Below, piece after piece: positions 28,555 to 47,495 of a stretch of DNA of 64,000 nucleotides (its first letter is position 1; every line of letters starts with the position of its first letter). The notes beneath the pieces were generated by a model, which saw only the letters and a program-made list of their open reading frames with translations, was not told the origin of the DNA and did not search any database. The position numbers and the translations under genes are program-made. Source of the DNA: Candidatus Tectimicrobiota bacterium (GTDB taxonomy: Bacteria > JACPUC01); the NCBI GenBank assembly GCA_016192455.1, contig JACPUC010000014.1:1-64000 (forward strand), written 5' to 3'.

Positions 28555-29523
28555 TTACTCTGTCACGCTTACCTGGCTCGCCTGGAAGGTCTCCATCGCC
28601 CAGGCGGCGCGCGACTCCGCGCTCTCGAAGAGCCGGCCGGGGGCGGCATCGACGCGCTGCAAGCGCTCGAGCAGGCCGCTCTCGTTGGCGAGCTGAATGG
28701 CCAGACCCGGCCGCGCGTTGAGCTCGAGGAGGAGGGGGCCGCGCTGCTCATCCAGCACGAGGTCGACGCCGAGGTAGCCGAGCCCCGCCAGCTCGTAACA
28801 GCGCGCGGCGAGGTGAAGCATCGTCGGCCAGTGGGGGACGAGGAGGCCGCGCACCGCCGCGCCGGTGTCGGGATGGTGTGTGACGACGCGGTCCCGGCAG
28901 ACCGCCGACAGCGTCGTGCCGCGTCCCAGGTCAATTCCCGCGCCCAAGGCGCCGCGGTGCAGGTTCGCCTTGCCATCGGAGGCGCGCGTCGGCAGCCGAA
29001 TCATCCCCATGACCGGCACCCCGCGGTAGACGACGATGCGGATATCCGGCACGCCCCGATAGGTGAGCGCCGCAAAGACGGGGTCGGGATGGATGAGCTC
29101 CTCGAGGATGGCCCGATCGGCCAGGCCGGCAAGGGAGAAGATGCCGGAGAGGATGCTCGAGATGTGGTACGCAAGGTCCTCGGGGCTGATCACCTCGCCG
29201 CTCGTCGTAACGAAGCCGGCCTGCACGCGCTTCGTGATGAGGACGATGCCGCTTCCCTGACAGCCGCGCGCGGGCTTCAGGGCGAACTCTTGCGTGCCCT
29301 GCAAGCGCTCCTCGAAGCCTCTGATCTCCGCCGTCCGCTCGATGACGAGGAGGAGGCGGGGGATGGGAATGCCCTGAGCCCCAGCGAGCTGTTTGGTGAG
29401 CACCTTGTCATCGACGCGGGGGTAGAGCGCCCGGGGATTGCAGCGGCTGAGGAACTCGGCATTGCGGCGGTTGATGCCGAGCACGCCGGCGTTGCGGAGC
29501 TGGCGCGCCAGGGCAAGGATCAT
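28555..29523 (-). CDS. Alpha-L-glutamate ligase-like ATP-grasp protein
   Basis: This 322-aa protein of the RimK-like ATP-grasp type probably uses ATP to ligate an amino acid, perhaps glutamate. ATP-grasp blocks seen are DKVLTKQLAGAQGIPIP near the N-terminus, FALKPARGCQGSGIVLI (nucleotide lid), DIRIVVYRGVPVMGMIRLP, and the metal-binding LGVDLVLDEQRGPLLLELNARPGLAI (Asp, Glu, Asn). It starts at an ATG overlapping the 7TM gene by four bases (ATGA), so it is translationally coupled. The trio with a 7TM transglutaminase-like protein and a retropepsin-like protein is a recurrent conserved cluster; its products are sometimes discussed in osmotic stress, but the exact substrate is not established from this sequence. 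Confidence 0.88.
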   Translation of the reverse strand: MILALARQLRNAGVLGINRRNAEFLSRCNPRALYPRVDDKVLTKQLAGAQGIPIPRLLLVIERTAEIRGFEERLQGTQEFALKPARGCQGSGIVLITKRVQAGFVTTSGEVISPEDLAYHISSILSGIFSLAGLADRAILEELIHPDPVFAALTYRGVPDIRIVVYRGVPVMGMIRLPTRASDGKANLHRGALGAGIDLGRGTTLSAVCRDRVVTHHPDTGAAVRGLLVPHWPTMLHLAARCYELAGLGYLGVDLVLDEQRGPLLLELNARPGLAIQLANESGLLERLQRVDAAPGRLFESAESRAAWAMETFQASQVSVTE

Positions 29524-31088
29524 GCCCGGGCTCTCCCCGGCGCGCCGATGGGCCGGAAGCGCAGCAGCTCCAGGAGCTTGAAGCCGGTGTAGCGGCCCAG
29601 CAAGACCTGCAGCGCCATCACCATGGCGAGCAGTTCGGGGTAGACGAAAAAGGTAAGCTGCAGGGTATCGGAGTGGATCAGGAAATAGGTGATGACCGAC
29701 ACGGCCGCGCTTCCCGCTACGGTGCGCAGACCTTCGCGCACCCCGGCTTCCTCCAGGAGCACATAGAAGCGCTCGATGATCATTGTCAAGATCACGATCG
29801 GCAGCAGGCCCGTGGACATGAATTGCTGGTTTTCCAGCTTGCTTCCCAACAAGGCGAGGTAGAGGAGGGCGACGATCACCAGGGTGAGCATGATCGACAG
29901 GCGCGGCACCATGAGGAGGCGCAGATGGTTCAGCAGCCGCCGAATGAGGTAGCCGAACAGCATGATGCCGACGAAGAGGCCCAGGCCATAGAGCAGCCCG
30001 GTGGCGCGGAAGGAGATCGCCAGGAGGACGGGCATGAAGATACCGAAGGTGGGGAAGCCAACGAGGTTGCGCAGGGCGGCCGTGAAGAGTGCCGCAATGG
30101 GAACGAGGAGGAGGACGCTGAACGCCTCGCGAGTTTCTTCCGGCAGGGTGAAGAGCGACCAGCGATCGAGCAAGCGGTTGGAGCGCGTCAGCCGCTCGTA
30201 GTGGAGGAACCAGTTGCTCACCGGTCGGCGCCTGACGGTCCAGCGCGCCTGCAGGAGCTTCCCCTGGCGTACGGTGAGCGCCTCCTCCCCATCCCGCGCC
30301 AGCGGAAGGTACTGCACCGAGCGCCCGGAGGGCAAACCAGACTCGGCGGAGATGCGTGCCCACTCCTTCCCAACCCACACCTCCACCCACTCCAACGGGG
30401 CCGAGCGGACACTCCTGCCGAGGGGAAGCCCCTGGACCTGCCGCGCGGGCAGCTCCGCAGCGCGCAGGAGGAGGAGGAAGGCCTGCAGCGGACCCCGCTC
30501 CGCAGACATGCTGGACCACTGCCGGATATCCTCCGCCGCCGCCTCCACGTCACTCCACTCCCCACCCAGCGTCTGCGCCGCCGCTGCAAGCCGCTGTTGC
30601 GGCGGCCGGCGCCGCCAGCGTGCCACTAATCGTTCCAATGCGGCGCGCTCAGCAGGTGGAAGGTCCGGCGGGTACGTCTGCAGCTCCGGCGCCTTCAACC
30701 TCGGCGTTACGCCTCGTCCTGCTGGGAGGTGGATGATCGCCTGATACCCAATGATCGCCTCGTCTTCGCTGGGCGGGCCAGACCAGACGCCGAGGCGTCG
30801 CCCTTCGCTCACGACCATGTGCGCGTCGAGAACGCCGGAGGTGAGCTGCTCGTTCATGACGATGCTTTCCCCCCGGCTCTGCGGCAGGATGAGCTGCGCC
30901 AGCACGCCTCGCGCGTCGGGGCGAACCAAGGCGCGGACCGAGACCTCCCAGGTGCGCCCGGGGGCGGTGGGGATGGGGGGGTAGCCGAGCCCCACGATGC
31001 GATACGTGACCAACAGCGCCGGCAGGAGCAGGAGCACGCCGGCCACCATCCCCGCCGCGTTCCGCTTCACGGCGTCTGCCCCGGACAT
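29520..31088 (-). CDS. 7TM protein with inactive transglutaminase-like domain
   Basis: This 522-aa membrane protein has one N-terminal TM helix (GMVAGVLLLLPALLVTYRIVGLG). An extracytoplasmic domain of about 270 residues follows, including a transglutaminase-like core (QWSSMSAERGPLQAFLLLLRAAELPARQVQGL). Seven C-terminal TM helices begin near AFSVLLLVPIAALFTAAL. The place of the transglutaminase Cys is filled by non-nucleophilic residues, so it is called inactive in the family name. It overlaps the retropepsin-like gene by 22 bp upstream and the ATP-grasp gene by 4 bp downstream, so the three form one operon. It may present or sense a periplasmic peptide ligand; that is inference. Confidence 0.87.
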   Translation of the reverse strand: MSGADAVKRNAAGMVAGVLLLLPALLVTYRIVGLGYPPIPTAPGRTWEVSVRALVRPDARGVLAQLILPQSRGESIVMNEQLTSGVLDAHMVVSEGRRLGVWSGPPSEDEAIIGYQAIIHLPAGRGVTPRLKAPELQTYPPDLPPAERAALERLVARWRRRPPQQRLAAAAQTLGGEWSDVEAAAEDIRQWSSMSAERGPLQAFLLLLRAAELPARQVQGLPLGRSVRSAPLEWVEVWVGKEWARISAESGLPSGRSVQYLPLARDGEEALTVRQGKLLQARWTVRRRPVSNWFLHYERLTRSNRLLDRWSLFTLPEETREAFSVLLLVPIAALFTAALRNLVGFPTFGIFMPVLLAISFRATGLLYGLGLFVGIMLFGYLIRRLLNHLRLLMVPRLSIMLTLVIVALLYLALLGSKLENQQFMSTGLLPIVILTMIIERFYVLLEEAGVREGLRTVAGSAAVSVITYFLIHSDTLQLTFFVYPELLAMVMALQVLLGRYTGFKLLELLRFRPIGAPGRARA

Positions 31089-31660
31089 GTCGGCGGCAGC
31101 AGGCGCTCGCTGCGCACATCGACGAGGAAGTCGTGCTCGAGGACGCGCCGGCCGACGAGCATGGGGAAACGCAGGTGCGAGCGATCGACGAGGTTGACGA
31201 GGATGCGCAGCCGTTTCGGCCCCAGACAGAGCTCCAGCTCGACCACCGGACGACGCTGCGGCTCGCCGCGGTCCTTGATCGTCCGCCACTGCGCAACGGG
31301 CAGGCGCAGGTGCAGACCCCCGTAAGCTGGCGGCAGATCGAACTCGACGATCCCGTCCTCCGCCTTGAGATTGCGCGCATCCATGGAGGAGGTGCGGGCG
31401 CCGGTGTCGATGCGCGCCGGCAGCTTCACTCCCCAGGGCAGGAGGATGACATCCTCCACCCCGCCGATGGTCACCTGGGAGGGAGGCTGCGTCTTCTGCC
31501 TGGCGCCCACCTCACGCACCGGGGACCCCAGCATGCCGCCAAGAACGAGCCAGAGGCCGCACCCCCAGGACAGGAGCCGGCGGCAGAGCGCCGTGGCCTC
31601 CCATGCGCCCCCGGCTCGCCGCCCTGCAGCCCAGCTTCGCCGCCGCGCTTCCTGCGGCAT
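31067..31660 (-). CDS. Retropepsin-like protein (annotated in databases as ATP-dependent zinc protease)
   Basis: This 197-aa exported protein has an N-terminal hydrophobic segment (LLSWGCGLWLVLGGMLG, about 29-45). A domain follows with PARIDTGARTSSMDA, where D85-T86-G87-A88 matches the Asp-Thr-Gly aspartic protease motif, and a later MLVGRRVLEHDFLVD block typical of PF05618. The family's older zinc-protease name is misleading, since I see no HExxH zinc motif. ATG at 31660 with a GGGAGGAGG site. First gene of the operon with the 7TM and ATP-grasp proteins. It may cleave a periplasmic substrate tied to the ligase product; that is inference. Confidence 0.87.
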   Translation of the reverse strand: MPQEARRRSWAAGRRAGGAWEATALCRRLLSWGCGLWLVLGGMLGSPVREVGARQKTQPPSQVTIGGVEDVILLPWGVKLPARIDTGARTSSMDARNLKAEDGIVEFDLPPAYGGLHLRLPVAQWRTIKDRGEPQRRPVVELELCLGPKRLRILVNLVDRSHLRFPMLVGRRVLEHDFLVDVRSERLLPPTCPGQTP

Positions 31661-31964
31661 CGGCCCCTCCTCCCAGGCAAACCTACCCTCGCGGCGGCAA
31701 CGGCTATCCGGCTGCACCGCCGGCGCCGCCCTTGCTTCCCGGTTGACCACTGCTGCGAACGAAGAGAAAATGGCAAGGCAAATGTAAGCTACTCAGCAGG
31801 CATTGACAAGGAAGCGCCGTTTCGGTCACCCGCCCGCCCGCGAGGCCGCGCCGCCTGGAAGCCAAGGGATCTCCAGGTTTCGGACCTTGGCTCCGGGGTC
31901 CCCGTGGATGCTGGGGCCGCCTCGCTGTCCTGCACGCCCCGCGGCCCGGAAGAGGAGGAGAACC
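31661..31964. other. 304-bp divergent intergenic region
   Basis: This gap lies between the retropepsin-like operon (minus) and a small TM protein gene (plus). It carries a candidate minus-strand promoter, listed separately. The plus-strand TTGACA at 31803 has no fitting -10 box 16-18 bases downstream. Confidence 0.5.
31781..31809 (-). promoter_or_regulatory. Candidate promoter of the retropepsin/7TM/ATP-grasp operon
   Basis: Reading the minus strand, TTGTCA (31809-31804), a 17-bp spacer and TACATT (31786-31781) match five and four of six sigma70 consensus positions. It sits about 120 bp upstream of the operon's first ATG in a locally AT-rich patch. Confidence 0.45.
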
Positions 31965-33509: not shown

Positions 33510-35081
33510 TCAGGGAGGCGGAAGATCGCCGCCGGGGAGGCGACCGTAGGTCTCCGTAAGCAGGCGCAGGCGGGCGGCGAGCTCGGCGCTCCAGGCGCCC
33601 TGGGGGAGTCGCCACTCCCAGTTGCCCCTGGCGGTCGCCGGCACGTTCATGCGCGCCTCCGATCCCAGGCCGAGGAGGTCCGGCATGGGCACGATCGCCA
33701 CGTCGGCCACCGACATCATGGCGACACTCACCATGGCCCAGTGCAAGTCCCGCCGCGCCGTTTCGGGCAGGCCGAGGTAGCGCAGGGCGAGGGCGCGCTC
33801 GCGCTGCCGCTGCCGGCGCCCCTGACGCGGCGACGCCGACTCCGCCCGGGCGAACCAGCCAGCGATCGTGTCGTTGTCATGCGTGCCGGTGTAGACAACG
33901 CAGCGGCGGGGATAGCTGTGCGGCAGGTGGTAGGCCGAACCTGCCTCACCGCCGAAGCCGAACTGCAGGACGCGCAGACCTGGGAAACCAAAGCGGTCGC
34001 GCAGCGCCGCCACCTCCTTGGTGATGATGCCGAGGTCCTCGGCGATGAAGCGCCGCGGCCCCAGCGCCGCGAGGGCCGCCTCGAAGAGCCGCGCGCCGGG
34101 GCCCTCTACCCAGCGGCCATGCCGGGCGGTGCGCGCCCGGCCCGGCACTTCCCAGTACCTGCAGAAGCCGATGAAGTGGTCGAGGCGCACGGCGTCGACG
34201 TGCGCGAAGGCGCGCCGGAAGCGCGCCAGCCACCAGTCGTAGCCGCGCTCCCGCAGCACCTCCCAGCGGTAGAGCGGGTTGCCCCAGAGCTGGCCCGTGC
34301 TGCTGAAGTAGTCGGGGGGCACGCCGGCGACATGCGTCGGCAAGCCCGAGGCATCAAGCAGGAAGAGCTCCTGGTTGGCCCACACGTCGGCGCTCTCCAG
34401 GGCGACGTAGATGGGGAGATCGCCGATCAGCCCGATGCCGCGGCAGGCGCACCGCCGCCGCAGTTCCTCCCATTGGCGATGGAAGGTGTACTGCAGGAAG
34501 ATGCGGAAGCTGATCTCCGCCCCGAGGTCGCGCCGCAGGCGCCTCAGGGCCGCGGGCCGACGCCGCCGCGCCGCCGGGTCCCAGGTGGTCCAGGGGCGGC
34601 CGCCGCAGCGCCGGCGCAGGCTGGCGTAGAGGGCATACTCCGGCAGCCAGGCACCCTGCGCCTCGCAGAACGCCGCGAGGGAGGCTCGCGCCGCCGCGCC
34701 GCCGTCGCGCTCGAAGGCCGTGAAGGCCCGAAACAACCTGCCGCGCTTGAAACGCACGACCGCCGGGTAGCGCACGCGAAGAGGCGTCAGCGCCGTGCCC
34801 GGCTTCAGGTCTTTGGCGCCGAGGAGCCCCTCCGCCGCGAGCCGCTCCAGGCTGATGAAGAGGGGGCTGCCGGCGAAGACGGAGAGCGGCATGTACGGGG
34901 AGTTCCCCTTGCCGACGGGAGAAATCGGCAGGAGCTGCCACCAGCGCTGACCGGCCGCGGCCAGGAAGTCGACAAAGGCATGCGCCGCCGGCCCCAGATC
35001 GCCGATGCCATGCCCGCCCGGCAGCGAGCTGAGGTGCAGGAGGATGCCGCTGGAGCGCGGCCAGAGCTGCTGGTCCTGCAT
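33510..35081 (-). CDS. malQ: 4-alpha-glucanotransferase (amylomaltase)
   Basis: This 523-aa GH77 enzyme moves maltooligosaccharyl units between alpha-1,4-glucans and releases glucose, recycling short oligosaccharides. The N-terminus [21 protein letters not shown] is diagnostic. Catalytic regions are [15 protein letters not shown] (nucleophile Asp), [13 protein letters not shown] (acid/base Glu) and [13 protein letters not shown] (transition-state Asp). The ATG at 35081 has GAGGAGG nine bases upstream; an earlier ATG at 35090 overlaps the stop codon of a decayed treY (ATGA) and may be the ancestral start. Last gene of the glucan operon. Convergent with corA. Confidence 0.93.
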
Positions 35082-35086
35082 GGGTG

Positions 35087-35340
35087 TCATCCTCCTCGTT
35101 CGAGAAAGGCCACCGGCAGCCGGTCGAAAAGCCTCGCCAGCGGCAGGACGTTCCACTACCCACGCCGCTCCTCGAGGCAGGCATGAGGCGCCGCCAGCCG
35201 GCGCGGGCGCGCGCCAGCGGCGAGGCGTAGAGATGGCTGATGCCGAGTTCGGCGAGGTAGTCAACGAGGGACGTTGCCTGGGCCAGGGTGCCGTCGCGGT
35301 TCAATTGCAGGCGGTACGTTGCGCTGGGGATGGAGGGCGG
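35087..35340 (-). pseudogene. treY: Decayed treY with internal deletion
   Basis: Two pieces of maltooligosyltrehalose synthase remain. Around 35340-35205 one frame reads [20 protein letters not shown] and then [20 protein letters not shown], the classic TreY N-terminus. At 35155-35087 a different frame reads [10 protein letters not shown] then [12 protein letters not shown] and a TGA stop, the TreY C-terminal consensus. Only about 50 bp separate them, so roughly 600-700 codons are missing. An in-frame TAG stands before the first piece and another immediately before the second, and no usable start codon is seen. The stop overlaps a malQ ATG as ATGA, showing the ancestral glgX-treY-malQ order. 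Confidence 0.85.
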
Positions 35341-35579
35341 AACGGGCGGCAGCCATGGCGGCTCGTTCTGCTATCTGGTCCTCGGCAGCCGAGGCGAGGG
35401 TGGGCGGATGCCCGGCAAAACCTCCACCACGCGCCCCGACCGGAGGCGCCCGCAGCCGCAACCTCAGCGGCGGACGAGGATTCCCTTCTCTTCCACCAGC
35501 CGCGTGGCATTCCCTGGGGCATCCTACCTACACCCGCACGCCGGCACGGTCTGGAGCCGGGCAGCGAACCGCCACCCTC
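35341..35579. other. Gap between glgX and the treY remnant
   Basis: No supported gene lies here. Together with the remnant it makes a ~500-bp stretch without an intact gene inside an otherwise tightly packed operon. I see no terminator that would obviously separate malQ from glgX. Confidence 0.4.
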
Positions 35580-37718
35580 CTAGCCGGCACTCCGGTGCAG
35601 CAGGCGAAAGACGCCGATCGTTCGACCCCGAAGCTGGTAGGTGGATGCGGGCTTCCAGAGGCGGCGGCGCTCCAGGCGGGCGTAGGGATTGGTGTCGAGA
35701 ATAACCTGCCAGAGCGCGCGCGGCGCTTCGGACGGCAGCCTGAAGGAGAGACCCCGGGGATGCGCGTTGAAGAGGATGAGGAGGGTATCCCCCGCCACCT
35801 TGTTGCCGTGCACATCTACCTCGTCGATGGCGCTGGCATCCATGCGCACCGCCAAGGCTCTTGCCTCGGGGTTCCTCCACTCCTGGTCGCCCATCTCATG
35901 GCCGTCCGGCGCCAACCACATGATGTCTTTCTTCCCCGACTCATTCACGGACCTGCCGGTGAAGAACCGCCGCCGCTGCAGGATGGGCTCCTTCTTGCGG
36001 AGCTGCACGAGCTGCCGCGCCAGGCGAAGGAACTCGCGATCGGTCGGGGAGAGGTCCCAGCGATACCAGCTCGTCTCGTTGTCCTGGCAGTACGCGTTGT
36101 TGTTCCCCCCCTGGGTGCGCCCCAACTCATCGCCGCCGGAGATCATGGGCACCCCAACCGAGAGGAGCAGCGTCGCCAGGATGTTGCGCCGCTGCACCAG
36201 GCGCAGCCCCTCGACGCGCGGGTCCTCCGAGGGGCCCTCGACGCCGCAGTTCCAACTGAGGTTATCATCGTGGCCGTCCCGGTTCCCCTCGCCATTGACC
36301 TCATTATGCTTGTTGTTGTAGCTGACGAGGTCCTTCAAGGTGAAGCCGTCGTGAACCGTGACGAAGTTGATGCTCGCCTGCGGCCTGCGCCCGCCGGAGC
36401 TGTAGAGATCGCTGCTGCCCGAGAGGCGCGTGGCGAGGTCGCTGATCTGGCCCGAGTCGCCGCTCCAGAAGCGGCGGACGGTATCCCGGAACTTGTTGTT
36501 CCACTCGGTCCAGAGCACCGGGAAGTTTCCCACTTGGTAGCCCCCTTCGCCGAGGTCCCACGGTTCCGCGATGAGCTTCACCTGGGAGATCACGGGGTCC
36601 TGGTGGATGATGTCGAAGAAGGCGCCGAGTCGATCCACTTCATGGAGCTCGCGGGCCAAGGCGCTGGCCAGATCGAAGCGGAAACCGTCCACGTGCATCT
36701 CGAGGACCCAGTAGCGCAGGCTGTCCATGATGAGCTGCAGCACCCGCGGATGCATCATGTTGAGGGTGTTGCCGCAGCCGGTGAAGTCCATGTAGGAGCG
36801 CAGGTCCCGCGGCACCAGCCGATAGTAGGCGGCGTTGTCGATGCCCCGGAAGGAGAGGGTGGGGCCGAGGCGATTGCCTTCGGCGGTGTGGTTGTAGACG
36901 ACGTCGAGGATCACCTCGATGCCGGCGGCATGCAGGGCGCGCACCATCATCTTGAACTCGCGATCCGCCGCCAGCTCATCGGGACAGGCGGTGTAGCGGT
37001 TGTCCGCTGCAAAGTACGACAGGGTGTTGTAGCCCCAGTAGTTGCTCAGCCCCATGTCGACGAGACGCCGTTCATCGAGGCGGTGGTGGATCGGCATGAG
37101 TTCCACCGCCGTAATGCCAAGCTCCTGCAGGTGCCGGATGAGCGGGTCGCTGGCCAGCGCCGCGTAGGTGCCGCGCAGGCGCTCGGGAACCTCGGGATGG
37201 AGCGCGGTCATGCCTTTGACATGCGCCTCGTAGATGATGGTCTTCGGCCAGGGCGTGCGGGGCGGGCAGTCGTCACCCCACGTGAAGGAGGGATCGACGA
37301 CCGCTGCGAGAGGGGCATAGGGCGCGCTGTCCCGCTCATCCTTCGAGAGGTCCTCTGCCGGCGCGCCCAGGCGGTAGCCGTAGAGCGACTCGTGCCAGCG
37401 CGTCCGCCGTCCAATGGCCTTCGCATACGGATCGAAGAGGACCTTCGCCGGGTTGAAGCGGTGGCCGCGCTCGGGCTCATACGGTCCATGGACACGGTAG
37501 CCGTAGAGCTGGCCCGGCCGGATGCCGGGGAAGTAGCCGTGCCAGACCTGGTCGGTGTACTCGGGGAGACCAAGGCGGTGGTTCTCCTGCGTCGCCTCCG
37601 GATGGTCGAACAGACAGAGTTCCACCTTGGTCGCGTTCTCGGAGAAGAGCGCGAAGTTCACACCCATGCCGTCCCAGGTGGCGCCCAGGGGGTACGGTGT
37701 GCCGGGGAGGATTCTCAT
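35580..37718 (-). CDS. glgX: Glycogen debranching enzyme (isoamylase type)
   Basis: This 712-aa GH13 debranching enzyme hydrolyses alpha-1,6 branches of glycogen. The N-terminal CBM48-like domain begins [23 protein letters not shown]13 regions include [24 protein letters not shown] (nucleophile Asp), [16 protein letters not shown] (acid/base Glu) and [17 protein letters not shown] (HD pair). Length and the YKDxR-free GlgX pattern fit bacterial GlgX/TreX. ATG at 37718 with GAGAGG upstream, 61 bp after treZ. In trehalose operons the TreX role is to feed unbranched chains to TreY, which is broken here. Confidence 0.94.
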
Positions 37719-37779: not shown

Positions 37780-39723
37780 TCAGCCGGACGCCTCCGGCGG
37801 CGCGCCTTTCTCGGCTCGCAGCCAGAGCGCGAAGGAGGTCGGCTGCAGCGTCACGTCAACCTCGCCGCCTGACGCCAGACGCTCCGGCAGCAGGCTCCCC
37901 GAGCCGCCCCAGCTCTGGTCGGCGGAGTCGAGGCAACGCTCCCACTCCCCGTCCGGCATCGCCAGGCGGAGGTCCCCGCGGCGGTTCCCGAAGTGAAAGA
38001 GCACGAAGACCGCGCTCTCGTCAACCTGCCGATGCAGCGTCAGCACCGCCGCCGCCTCGAAGCAGGCGACCTGCTGCGTCTCCTTGCGCGGCCGCGCCAG
38101 GGCCGGGACCGTCTTGCGCAGCGCGATGAGCTGCGTATAGAGCGCCAGCAGCACGGCGTGCCGGCCCGACCGGCGCAGGTGGCGCCGCAGCGTCGAGCGC
38201 CGGAAGGTCTCCTCGGCCTGCGGGTCGGGCGCCGCGCCCTGCCAGGCGAAGCCGGCGAACTCCTCGCGCCGACCCCGGCGCACGGCGTCGATGAGCGCCG
38301 CATCGCCGTGACTGACGAAGTAGAGGAAGGGCGCGGTCTCGCCGTACTCCTCGCCCATGAAGAGGAGGGGCAGGAACGGCGACAGCAGCAGCACCCCGGC
38401 GGCCAGCTTCTGGGCCTCGAAGGAGACGAGCTGGCTGAGGCGCTCGCCGAGCCGCCGGTTGCCGATCTGGTCATGGTTCTGCAGGAAGACGATGTGCTGC
38501 TCCGCCGCCAGGTCCCGCGAGGAGCGGCCATAGCGTCGCTGGCGGAATGCGGAGTGCTGGCCGCAATACACGAACCCCTCGCGGCAGGCCGCGGCAAGCT
38601 GCGCCAGGCTGCCGAAATCCTCGTAGTAGCCGCTGCGCTCGCCGGTGACGAGGGCGTGGAAGGCATGGTGGAAATCGTCGGTCCAGACGGCGTCGAGGCC
38701 GCAGCCTCCCTGATCTGGCGACCGCGCCAGCCGCGGATCGTTCAGGTCGCTCTCGGGCATGATCTGGACCTGCCGGCCGAGCCGGCGCGCCATGGCGTGC
38801 ACGGCCTCGCCAAGCTCTTCCAGGAACGGCCTCGCCGAGCCGTCGAGGATGGCGTGCACCGCATCGAGACGCAGGGCGTCGATGTGGAACTGCGTCACCC
38901 ACGCCAGGGCGTTCTCGATGAAGTAGCGCCGCACCTCATCGCTGTGCGGGCCATCGAAGTTCAGGGCCGATCCCCACGGCGTCCGGTAGCGGTCGGTGAA
39001 GTAGGGGCCGAAGTCCGCGAGGTAGTTCCCCTCCGGGCCGAGGTGGTTGTAGACCACGTCGAGCACCACCGCCAGGCCGCGCTGGTGCGCCGCGTCGACG
39101 AGGCGCTGCAGGGCCCGCGGCCCGCCGTAGGAGTGCTGCACGGCGTACGGGTAGACGCCGTCGTATCCCCAGTTCCGCTGGCCGGGAAACTGCGCCACCG
39201 GCATCAGCTCGAGCGCGGTCACGCCCAGCGCCGCGAGGTAGTCGAGTTCACCGAGGAGCGCCGCGAAGGTCCCCTCCAGCGTGAAGGTCCCCGGATGCAG
39301 CTCATAGATGAGGTATCGCCACAGGGGTAGGCCAGGCCAGCGATCATCCTGCCACTGCGCCTCGAGGTCGACAACCTCGGAGGGGCCGTGCACCCCGTGC
39401 GGCTGCGAGCGCGAGGCTGGATCGGGACGCAGCCGCTCGCCGTCCAGCTCGTAGCGGTAGAGGCTCCCCGGCCACACCCCTTCCAGAACGCCCGCATGGT
39501 AGCCGCGCTCGCCAGCCTGCAGCGGCGCCCGCCGGGGCTCCGACTGCTGGAGCTGCACGGCAACCCTCGCCGCGAACGGCGCCCAGACGAGGAATCGACA
39601 GCGTCCCTCCCCTAGGTAGGTCGCGCCCAGGCTCGGACGCCACTCCGCCAGGTCGCCCTGCAGCCATGGCGCTGGCGCCGCGGCAGCGGGCCTGCCGCCC
39701 GGGAACACCTCGGCGGCGCTCAT
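37780..39723 (-). CDS. treZ: Malto-oligosyltrehalose trehalohydrolase
   Basis: This 647-aa GH13 enzyme normally cleaves maltooligosyltrehalose made by TreY, releasing trehalose. The N-terminal CBM48-like module reads [16 protein letters not shown]. Core blocks: [13 protein letters not shown], the [19 protein letters not shown] loop, [25 protein letters not shown] (nucleophile Asp), IMPESDLND (acid/base Glu) and [11 protein letters not shown]. These match TreZ rather than GlgB. The ATG overlaps the glgB stop by four bases (ATGA). The gene looks intact although its partner treY is only a remnant, so its present substrate is uncertain. Confidence 0.93.
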
Positions 39724-41648
39724 GGCGTGCCTGCTTCGCCCAGCAGGAAGAGGATCGCCAGCGGCGGCAAGGTCAGGCTGACGGAGGAGGGACGGTTATG
39801 GTGCGGCTGCGCCGCCGCCGTCACCCCGCCGAGGTTGCCCATGCCGCTCCCTCCATACTCCCGCGCATCGCTGTTCAACACCTCCTTCCAGAAGCCGCCG
39901 CGGGGCACCCCCACCCGGTAGCTGAAGCGCGGCACGGGGGTGAAGTTGCAGACGACGAGCATCGCGGCAGCGTCCGCGCCTCGCCCTAGGGCGCGACCCA
40001 GCCGCAGGAAACTGAGGACGCTCTGCTGGCTGTCGCTGCCGTCGATCCACGCGAAGCCGTCGGGCACGCAATCGCCCGCGTGCAACGTCGGCTGCGCCCG
40101 GTAGAGTTGATTCAGGTCCTCCACCCAGCGCCGCACCCCGGCGTGCCCTGGATGCTCGAGGAGATGCCACTCCAGACTCGCCTCATGGTACCACTCCGAC
40201 CACTGGCCGATCTCGCCTCCCATGAAGAGCAGCTTCTTGCCCGGCTGGGCGTACTGGTAGCCGAGCAGGAGCCGCAGGTTGGCGAACTTCTGCCAGTCAT
40301 CGCCGGGCAGCTTGCGCAGCAGCGCTCCCTTGCCGTAGACAACCTCGTCGTGCGACAGGGGGAGCACGAAGCGCTCCGAGGAGTAGTAGAGCGACCGGAA
40401 GGTGATCTCGCTATGGTGGTAGGCACGGTGAATGGGGTCATGGCCGAGGTAGGAGAGGGTATCGTGCATCCAGCCCATATCCCACTTCAGGTCGAAGCCG
40501 AGGCCGCCGGCCACGGTGGGCCGCGTCACTCCGGGCCAGGCGGTGGACTCCTCGGCGGCGGTCAAGCTGCCGGGAAAGTGCCGGTGCACCGCCTCGTTGA
40601 AGTCGCGTAGGAAGCCAATCGCGGCGAGGTTCTCGCGCCCGCCGTGGTGGTTGGGAACCCACTCCCCCTCGCGGCGCGCGTAGTCGAGGTAGAGCATGGA
40701 GGCCACGGCGTCAACGCGCAGCCCGTCCACGTGGTACTGGTGCAGCCAGAAGAAGGCATTGCTGATGAGGAAGCTGCGGACCTCGTGGCGGGCGTAGTTG
40801 AAGATCAGGCTGCCCCACTCCGGATGCACCGCCTGGCGCGGGTCGGCGTGCTCGTAGAGGGCGGTGCCGTCGAAGTAGACAAGGCCGTGCCCGTCGGAGG
40901 GGAAGTGGGAGGGGACCCAATCGAGGAGGACGCCGATGCCGTGCTGGTGCAGGCAGTCGATGAGCGCCATGAGGTCCTGGGGTGAGCCGAAGCGGCTGCT
41001 CGGCGCGAAGTAGCCGGTGATTTGGTAGCCCCAGGAGCCGAAGAAGGGGTGCTCCATGACGGGCAGGAACTCGACGTGGGTGAAGCCCAGGCGCTGGACG
41101 TACTCGGCGAGCTGCGCGCCAAGTTCCCGATAGCTCAGGGAGCGGTGGTCCTCCGCGGCGACGCGCCGCCACGATCCAGCGTGCACCTCGTAAATCGACA
41201 GGGGGGCGTCGAGGGCATTCCGCCCGGGGCGCTCCGCCACCCAGGCGCCATCGCCCCACGAATAGCTGAGGTCCCACACCACCGAGGCCGTGAGCGGCGG
41301 CACCTCGGCGCGGCAGGCGAAGGGATCGGCTTTCTCCGCCACGTAGCCGTTGTAGCGCGAGACGATATGGTACTTGTAGAGGGATCCCGCCCCAACTCCT
41401 GGGATGAACCCCTCCCAAATGCCAGAGACGCCGCACGGGTGCAAGGCGTGACGCTCCGGCGCCCAGCCGTTGAAATCGCCGATGACGGCGACGCGCTCCG
41501 CGTTCGGCGCCCAGACGGCGAAGTAGGTTCCCTCGTCGCCGGCGTGCCGCAGCGGATGGGCCCCGAGCTTCTCGTAGAGGTGGAAGTGGGTCCCCTCGTT
41601 GAAGAGATGGAGGTCGTCATCACTTAGAAGGGTTACGTCGTAGCGCAC
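39720..41648 (-). CDS. glgB: 1,4-alpha-glucan branching enzyme
   Basis: This 642-aa GH13 enzyme transfers alpha-1,4 chains to make alpha-1,6 branches in glycogen or GlgE-type alpha-glucan. The N-terminal CBM48 block is [21 protein letters not shown]. Catalytic regions are [18 protein letters not shown] (nucleophile Asp), [16 protein letters not shown] (acid/base Glu) and [12 protein letters not shown] (His-Asp). GTG start with GAGG upstream, 44 bp after treS. It is shorter than long two-N-domain GlgB proteins (about 730 aa), lacking most of the N1 module. It works on linear glucan made by GlgE in this operon. Confidence 0.95.
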
Positions 41649-41692: not shown

Positions 41693-45093
<3,401 letters not shown>

Positions 45094-45097
<4 letters not shown>

Positions 45098-47079
45098 GGG
45101 AGGTGTCGCTCCACTCGGAAGATGTGCGCGGGTTGAACCTGGGGATCGAGGCGCACGTAGTTGCGCTCCGACCATTCGTAGCGCGCCCCACTCAGGAGGT
45201 CGCAGACTTCGTAGCGCGCTCCCGGCGGCACGCCGATCTCCTCGAGCGGCACCATGGCCGTGCCGTGATGGGGATGGGCGGGATCGAGGTTGACCAGGAC
45301 GAGGATGACGTTCGACCGGTCCGCCGTCATTTTGGCATAGAAGAGGAGCTGCTCGTTATCGGTCTCGAAAAACCGCAGGTTGGTCAGGTCGTGGAGCGCC
45401 GGGTTCTCCCGCCTGATGATATTGACCCGCGCCATGAGCTCCTTGATGTTCCCTGGCTGGTTCCAGTCTCGCACGCGGATTTGATACTTTTCCGAATCCA
45501 GGTACTCTTCGCTCCCCTCGCGCAGGGGGGTGTTCTCGCCGAGCTCAAAGCCGCTGTAGATGCCGTACGAGGGGGAGAGGGTGGCGGCGAGCACGAAGCG
45601 CATCATGAAGGCGGGCCGTCCCCCTTTCTGCAGCACCGCTTGGAGGATGTCCGGGGTGTTGGTGAAGAAGTTGGGTCGGAAGTACTCCTGCATGCCGGAG
45701 GTGGTGAGCTCCGTGAGGTACTCGGTGAGGTCCCACTTCTCGTTGCGCCAGGTGAAGTAGGTGTAGGACTGCGTGAACCCCGCCTTGGCCAGCAGCTTCA
45801 TCATCTTCGGCCGGGTAAAGGCCTCGGAAAGGAAGATGACGTCCGGATGGTCGGCCTGGATTTCCGGGATCAGCCACTCCCAGAAGACGAGCGGCTTCGT
45901 GTGCGGGTTATCCACCCGGAAGATGCGCACCTGACGCTCGATCCAGAAGAGGAGCACATCGCGCAGGGCGTGCCAGAGGCCCCAGCGGTCGTCGGTATCG
46001 AAGTTGACAGGGTAGATGTCCTCATACTTCTTCGGCGGGTTCTCGGCGTACTTGATCGTCCCATCCGGGCGGTGGTAGAACCACTCCGGATGCTCCGTCA
46101 CCCACGGATGATCCGGGGAGCACTGAATGGCGAAGTCGAGCGCCACCTCCAGGCCGCACTGGCGCGCCGCCGCCACGAAGTGGTCGAAATCCTCCAGGGT
46201 GCCGAGGGCCGGCTCGATGGCCGTGTGCCCGCCGTGCTCGCTGCCGATGGCCCAGGGGCTGCCGGGATGGCTGGCGTCGCTGCGCAGGGTGTTGTTCGGT
46301 CCCTTGCGCTTGCTGCGGCCGATGGGGTGGATCGGCGCCAGGTAGAGCACATCGAAGCCCATGTCCCGGATGTCCCGCAGGCGCGCCTCGGCCTCGCGGA
46401 AGGTGGCGCCGCGCGCCGGATCGCTCCCCTGGGAGCGCACGAACATCTCGTACCAGGCGCCGAAGCGCGCCCGCGGGCGATCGGCGATCACCTCCAGCTC
46501 CGGCTCGTAGCGGACGGCGTCGCGCCGCGGCTGCAGGCGCAGCATGGCCTCGCCGAGCGCCTCCTCGGCCGCCAGCGCGAGGACTGCGGCGGGGTCGTGA
46601 CGCGCCGCGTGTAGCGCCTCGACGGCGCGGTGCAACAGCGCTCCCTCGTCCCCCGCGACGGCGAGCGCCTCCTGGAGGAGGGCGATGCCTTCGACGACCT
46701 CGCTGGCGACGTCGGGGTAGCCCCCCTCGACGCGCCGTTGCAGATCGAAGAGCCAGGAGGCGTACCCATCCGTCCAGGCCTCGATGGTAAAGCCGTAGCG
46801 CGCCGTGGCGCAGAGCGGAAACTCGCCCCGCCAGCGGTCGTTGACGAGCGGCCGCAGCGGTGTTTCGGCGTACGCTGCCTCGATGAACTCCGGGGACTCC
46901 TGGCCGGGGTTCCGCCGTGGTGTTTTGCGCCGCCACTTCACCACCGCCCGAAGGACCGCGTGGCCGTCGCGGAAGATGTCGGCCTCCACGCGGCACGGTT
47001 CACCCACGATGCGTTTCGCGGCATAGCGGCCCCCATCAACGCAGGGTTCCACCGCCTCGATGATAAGATGTCGCTCCAT
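45094..47079 (-). CDS. glgE: Alpha-1,4-glucan:maltose-1-phosphate maltosyltransferase
   Basis: This 661-aa GH13_3 enzyme extends alpha-1,4-glucan by maltosyl units from maltose-1-phosphate. The N-terminal beta-rich domain (to about 200) is followed by the barrel: YLAPIHPIGRSKRKGPNN, EVALDFAIQCSPDHPW, IRVDNPH-like IFRVDNPHTKPLVFW (nucleophile Asp) and DVIFLSEAFTRPKMM (acid/base Glu), all diagnostic of GlgE. ATG at 47079 with GGGAG upstream. It is the first gene of the operon and is divergent from bioB across 416 bp. The window has no glgC or glgA, so the GlgE route is the visible way to make glucan here. Confidence 0.95.
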
Positions 47080-47495
47080 GAGAACTCCCGTGGGGTAATG
47101 CCGGCGCCGCACCAGGCCCCTGGCTCATGGCTCCAGGAGGCCCGACATGGGGTACGAGGCCCTGGACTGGTTTTATCTTATTGGCATGATGTGCGAAACT
47201 TGCAAGGTCTCCGCTGCTTGACGTGGGGACATGCCGCGCTGCGGCCTGCGGCGTCACGCTCCTGGGAAGTCTCGGAACCGCCTTGTCAGCCGCATCGAGC
47301 CGCCGCCGGTCCGCGCCAGGAATCTCCTTGCCCCTTGAAGCAAGCAGGGTAAGATAGGGAGGGGCGCCTCCCGAACCGCATGCGCCTGAGCCCCCGCTCA
47401 GCCGCGGCGCGGGCGCGTGCAGAGAGTCCATAGCAGAGGGTCTGCTCGCGGGGGATGCGGGGCGCTCAGGACGTGGGCCTCATGAAGGAGTAGCT
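47080..47495. other. 416-bp divergent region, glgE / bioB
   Basis: No gene is supported here. A candidate bioB promoter is listed separately. On the minus strand a weaker signal, TTGCAA (47205-47200) and TAAGAT (47180-47175) with a long 19-bp spacer, may serve the glucan operon. I found no BirA- or BioR-like palindrome. Confidence 0.4.
47328..47355 (+). promoter_or_regulatory. Candidate promoter for the biotin operon
   Basis: TTGCCC (47328-47333), a 16-bp spacer and TAAGAT (47350-47355) give a plausible sigma70-type site about 140 bp upstream of the bioB ATG. The -10 is good, the -35 fair. Confidence 0.35.

Follow-up and report, generated by a model that had tools for sequence, protein, structure and literature searches.

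The window, by which we mean the whole stretch analysed (bases 1-64000 of the 120,844-bp contig C10), belongs to a 4.46-Mb assembly of 31 contigs rated 88% complete. It contains a minus-strand cluster of genes for alpha-glucan and trehalose metabolism (Table 1); treY apart, curated models or clear domain hits show every gene in it to be full length. TreY converts linear alpha-glucan to maltooligosyltrehalose, from which TreZ releases trehalose, while GlgX/TreX acts as the debranching enzyme (PMC11046441). A further stretch of the minus strand, at 28555-31750, carries adjoining genes for an ATP-grasp protein (PF14397), an inactive transglutaminase-7TM protein (PF14402) and a Zn-protease-like protein (PF05618).

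Table 1. Features of the treY remnant and the surrounding gene cluster
Feature	Coordinates	Strand	Evidence or remark
malQ, 4-alpha-glucanotransferase	33510..35090	-	NF011080 660 bits, TIGR00217 356 bits, both above cut-off
C-terminal treY stub	35087..35155	-	22 residues + TGA stop, ~20 treY codons; frame differs from N-terminal piece
AGGAGG, likely malQ Shine-Dalgarno	35091..35096	-	within last treY codons; abuts ATG 35090, 9 nt before ATG 35081
In-frame TAG immediately before C-terminal piece	35156..35158	-	three-frame translation
Stretch separating the two treY pieces, holds deletion junction	35159..35196	-	38 bp, assignable to no TreY part
N-terminal treY stub	35197..35334	-	46 codons, SIPSATYR...ARARAG; upstream in-frame start codon absent
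Closest ATG upstream, possible former treY start	35354..35356	-	out of N-terminal piece frame; own frame stops at 35263-35261 (three-frame translation)
glgX/treX, intact debranching enzyme	35580..37718	-	TIGR02100 1037.9 bits
treZ, intact, orphaned treY partner	37780..39723	-	TIGR02402 705.7 bits vs cut-off 538.8, full length
glgB, intact branching enzyme	39720..41648	-	TIGR01515 884 bits
treS-mak fusion (trehalose synthase + maltokinase), intact	41693..45175	-	TIGR02456 902 bits, TIGR02457 463 bits
glgE, maltose-1-phosphate maltosyltransferase	45094..47112	-	PF11896 153 bits, PF21702 105 bits

Between glgX and malQ, the initial annotation had read a TreY N-terminus in one frame and a TreY C-terminus in another, and both pieces were found as placed, on the minus strand. 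In a genome-scale search the N-terminal piece matched positions 1-44 of the TreY model TIGR02401 with 50.5 bits (E 2.7e-13), and it scored 47.9 bits against a profile of 58 TreY sequences built for this analysis. The first of these scores lies far under the curated TIGR02401 cut-off of 498.65 and the catalytic core is absent, so that the locus does not encode a functional TreY by this measure. The piece nevertheless retains 14 of the 16 columns at which 90% or more of 56 intact TreY proteins agree, and its mean identity to these proteins is 0.51, as compared with 0.42-0.64 (mean 0.56) among the intact ones. Its codon-position GC (0.67/0.54/0.87) resembles that of the live genes of the window. 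Given this conservation and live-gene-like composition, the N-terminal piece has either been lost recently or been little altered. Elsewhere in the window, open reading frames run long and unbroken which, together with the coding-like GC of the piece, argues that the breaks in treY do not stem from a general indel-error problem.

The N-terminal piece also carries a lesion that was absent from the initial annotation. Three-frame translation showed that, from the stop at 35373-35371 onwards, the frame of the piece has no ATG, GTG or TTG ahead of ATYRLQL; the closest ATG on the upstream side (35356) falls outside this frame. The spacer at 35357-35579 gave no convincing gene match.

Alignment of both pieces to TreY, which had been put forward as a check, succeeded for the N-terminal piece by standard search; the C-terminal piece was too short to reach significance by HMMER alone (-1.6 bits) but was recognised by two profile-based approaches. 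A codon-to-profile alignment gave 21.3 bits vs 9.9 ± 1.7 in 60 shuffles, none of which scored as high. When the last 25 TreY columns were slid along the 64 kb in each of the six frames, the C-terminal piece ranked top of 128,086 placements (runner-up, 17.5 bits), in a test that made no use of its location directly before malQ. The TAG reported before this piece is present in frame, at 35158-35156, and the treY stop (TGA, 35089-35087) overlaps the malQ ATG at 35090 as described. We consider the ATG at 35081 a likelier malQ start than this overlapping one, and the AGGAGG lying in the last treY codons offers a simple reason for the survival of the 3' stub.

The stretch between the pieces that belongs to neither measures 38 bp (35196-35159), rather than the roughly 50 bp given previously. 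Tested in three frames as additional TreY C-terminal sequence, it reached at best 7.7 bits, a value equalled by 31% of random segments. The 10-bp GCCGCTGGCG, which is common to both pieces, was ruled out as a recombination site, both copies being still there. The sequence of the junction area is palindromic and high in GC (35199-35222). We rejected its interpretation as a dispersed element (~35222-35185): matches in the genome are short and GC-rich, the best elsewhere being 35 bp at 89%, and they have no longer unit in common with the remnant. Two GC-rich repeat copies, with a core resembling the palindrome in the N-terminal piece, lie ~7 kb apart on contig C6 (L128/L131; 126085, 119048), and share the repeat with each other only.

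Counted from the first column of the N-terminal piece, the 56 related intact TreY proteins have a median length of 942 aa (range 784-1005). Subtraction of the 46 and ~20 codons that remain indicates that ~875 of ~942 codons, or ~2.6 kb, are missing (range ~720-940), which exceeds the 600-700 codons proposed earlier. The large internal deletion itself was correctly called; at least two small frame lesions accompany it.

To place the remnant in context, 84,980 species genomes were scanned with the host TreZ, yielding 80 loci, the closest at about 65% identity. treZ precedes treY in many of these, often separated from it by a large open reading frame of about 810 aa that is unrelated to the genes compared. 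This ORF (motif CIHGHFYQPPRENPW) occurs between the two genes in many phyla (L024, L028, L029, L039, L072, L096); the host has glgX at that position. The host order recurs with an open treY in Methylomirabilota PMV_4.88 (L025; glgB-treZ-glgX-treY, 967 aa) and, extending to malQ, in Desulfobacterota AH_259_B03_O07 (L099; glgB, treZ, glgX, treY, malQ, 945 aa), and treY stands directly before malQ in L005, L039 and L096. The 4-base ATGA overlap of treY and malQ seen in the host is also found in L039 and L099, both of which are distant and have an intact treY. Outside genomes, in which an unbroken treY is either flanked by glgX and malQ or immediately precedes malQ, thus support the ancestral order that the initial annotation had suggested. 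An intact treY at the same spot was found in distant genomes but in no close relative, all 40 compared relatives sharing only the domain with the host.

Seventeen genomes had TreZ with no full TreY detected at the retrieved locus, and 13 of them encode TreY above cut-off somewhere in the assembly, so it is common for the gene to have moved or for a locus to be truncated at the end of a contig. TreZ without TreY above cut-off in the assembly was seen in two Elusimicrobia MAGs (G081, G082) and a Chloroflexi MAG (G094), which are either further orphan treZ cases or incomplete genomes. An Ignavibacteriales MAG (L122; G079:C284:614-2069) has an intact treZ, and its treY-like fragment, interrupted by three in-frame stops, may be a treY pseudogene that arose independently.

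The 4.46-Mb, 88%-complete host assembly contains no second, full treY above the TIGR02401 cut-off, and thus no functional TreYZ pair was identified in it; a further treY might lie in the ~12% of the genome that the assembly lacks. treZ is present in a single copy, the translation of which shows by eye LRLDAVH, PESD and QNHD, which we take to be GH13 catalytic motifs. OtsA is encoded at C5:101233-102606 (L107, L120) with a score of 567.4 bits, just above the cut-off of 564.85. No match to OtsB/T6PP (TIGR00685) was found in the 88%-complete assembly or among the scanned neighbours of otsA, and rpoB gave zero matches in the assembly at that same rated completeness. The gyrB gene places the genome loosely, at 53-58% to Nitrospirota, Methylomirabilota, Desulfobacterota and Acidobacteriota, with a full-length GyrB identity of at most 58% to any tested genome. 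Judged from these identities, the host represents a deep, poorly sampled lineage.

The locus thus combines TreY homology in the right order and strand, a missing core with a broken frame, and syntenic intact orthologues in other genomes. These data make it very probable that treY is a pseudogene, formed by a large internal deletion together with small frame lesions, that no TreY is made, that the glucan-to-trehalose arm is cut and that treZ is orphaned. However many events were involved, and in whatever sequence they occurred, the locus as it reads would yield no TreY. We envisage an ancestor with glgE, treS-mak, glgB, treZ, glgX, treY and malQ in a single minus-strand cluster, from which about 875 of ~940 treY codons would have been removed by a single large internal deletion or a small number of them. 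Small indels or substitutions would have set the start, the N-terminal piece and the C-terminal piece into separate frames, the 3' stub probably being retained for the malQ Shine-Dalgarno and the malQ overlap. Loss of the GlgX-TreY-TreZ arm, from alpha-glucan to trehalose, would leave TreZ without its normal substrate supplier. On gene content, trehalose might still arise via OtsA and/or TreS, and pass through TreS-Mak and GlgE to alpha-glucan.

We weighed this pseudogene reading against three alternatives. The assembly has multiple contigs and is 88% complete, and the GC-rich, palindromic junction area is partially matched by short sequences elsewhere (35 bp at 89% for the best), features that could accompany an assembly artefact or strain mixture in which treY is intact in the real genome and the sequence was joined across ~2.6 kb, perhaps from a minority deletion strain. 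We regard this as unlikely: exact repeats of at least 16 bp at the junction were not found within the window, the 270-bp remnant occurs only once in the genome, no orphan treY fragment was found on other contigs, and the in-frame start is missing upstream of the junction and at a distance from it, which a misjoin alone would not account for. Unlikelier still is that the stub has been kept for a function of its own, with the 3' end as a translation-initiation or coupling region for malQ and the 5' end as a short leader. The position of AGGAGG, 9 nt before the second malQ ATG, and the limited decay of the N-terminal piece (0.51 vs 0.56) would suit such a role. However, recent loss predicts little decay equally well, initiation of malQ needs only the last ~10 bp, and the N-terminal piece has no in-frame start and is unreadable into the C-terminal piece. 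That the similarity to TreY is due to chance might be entertained for the C-terminal piece, which alone falls under HMMER significance, but this explanation is refuted by the E value of the N-terminal piece and by the placement scan, whose best hit falls exactly where the end of treY belongs; its probability is negligible.

Decay of TreYZ is already known, and the host is a further case. In Mycobacterium leprae the TreYZ and TreS pathways are listed as pseudogenes, leaving OtsAB as the sole intact pathway (PMC3744402, Table 1). The two resemble each other in that the TreYZ route was lost by gene decay with other trehalose genes present in the genome. They differ in that TreYZ and TreS are both listed as decayed in M. 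leprae, whereas the damage here is confined to treY, with treZ, treS-mak and glgE apparently intact. Pseudomonas aeruginosa has a treYZ/glgX/malQ/glgA operon and a glgE/treS-pep2/glgB operon, and trehalose made by TreYZ feeds GlgE (PMC11046441). The pathway parts are the same as those of the host, which by contrast has them in one cluster with treY broken, and where OtsA may supply trehalose instead. In S. venezuelae, OtsA-made trehalose feeds glycogen metabolism (PMC11046441); similarly, the host keeps treS-mak, glgE and glgB, leading from trehalose to alpha-glucan, together with otsA, with no OtsB match. It is conceivable, if improbable, that the loss of treY made the trehalose-to-glucan flow one-way and that the orphan TreZ was repurposed, being maintained by selection for a different activity, such as hydrolysing other alpha-glucans.

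As a pseudogene treY is ordinary, notable only for the clean legibility of both its ends and of the ancestral order. It offers a clean example of operon pruning, in which one gene of a coupled pathway is almost wholly removed while the frames of its neighbours and the downstream start signal are kept. The presence of treZ alone in a genome is therefore no proof of a TreYZ pathway, and we predict that this bacterium would be unable to recycle glycogen to trehalose via TreYZ.
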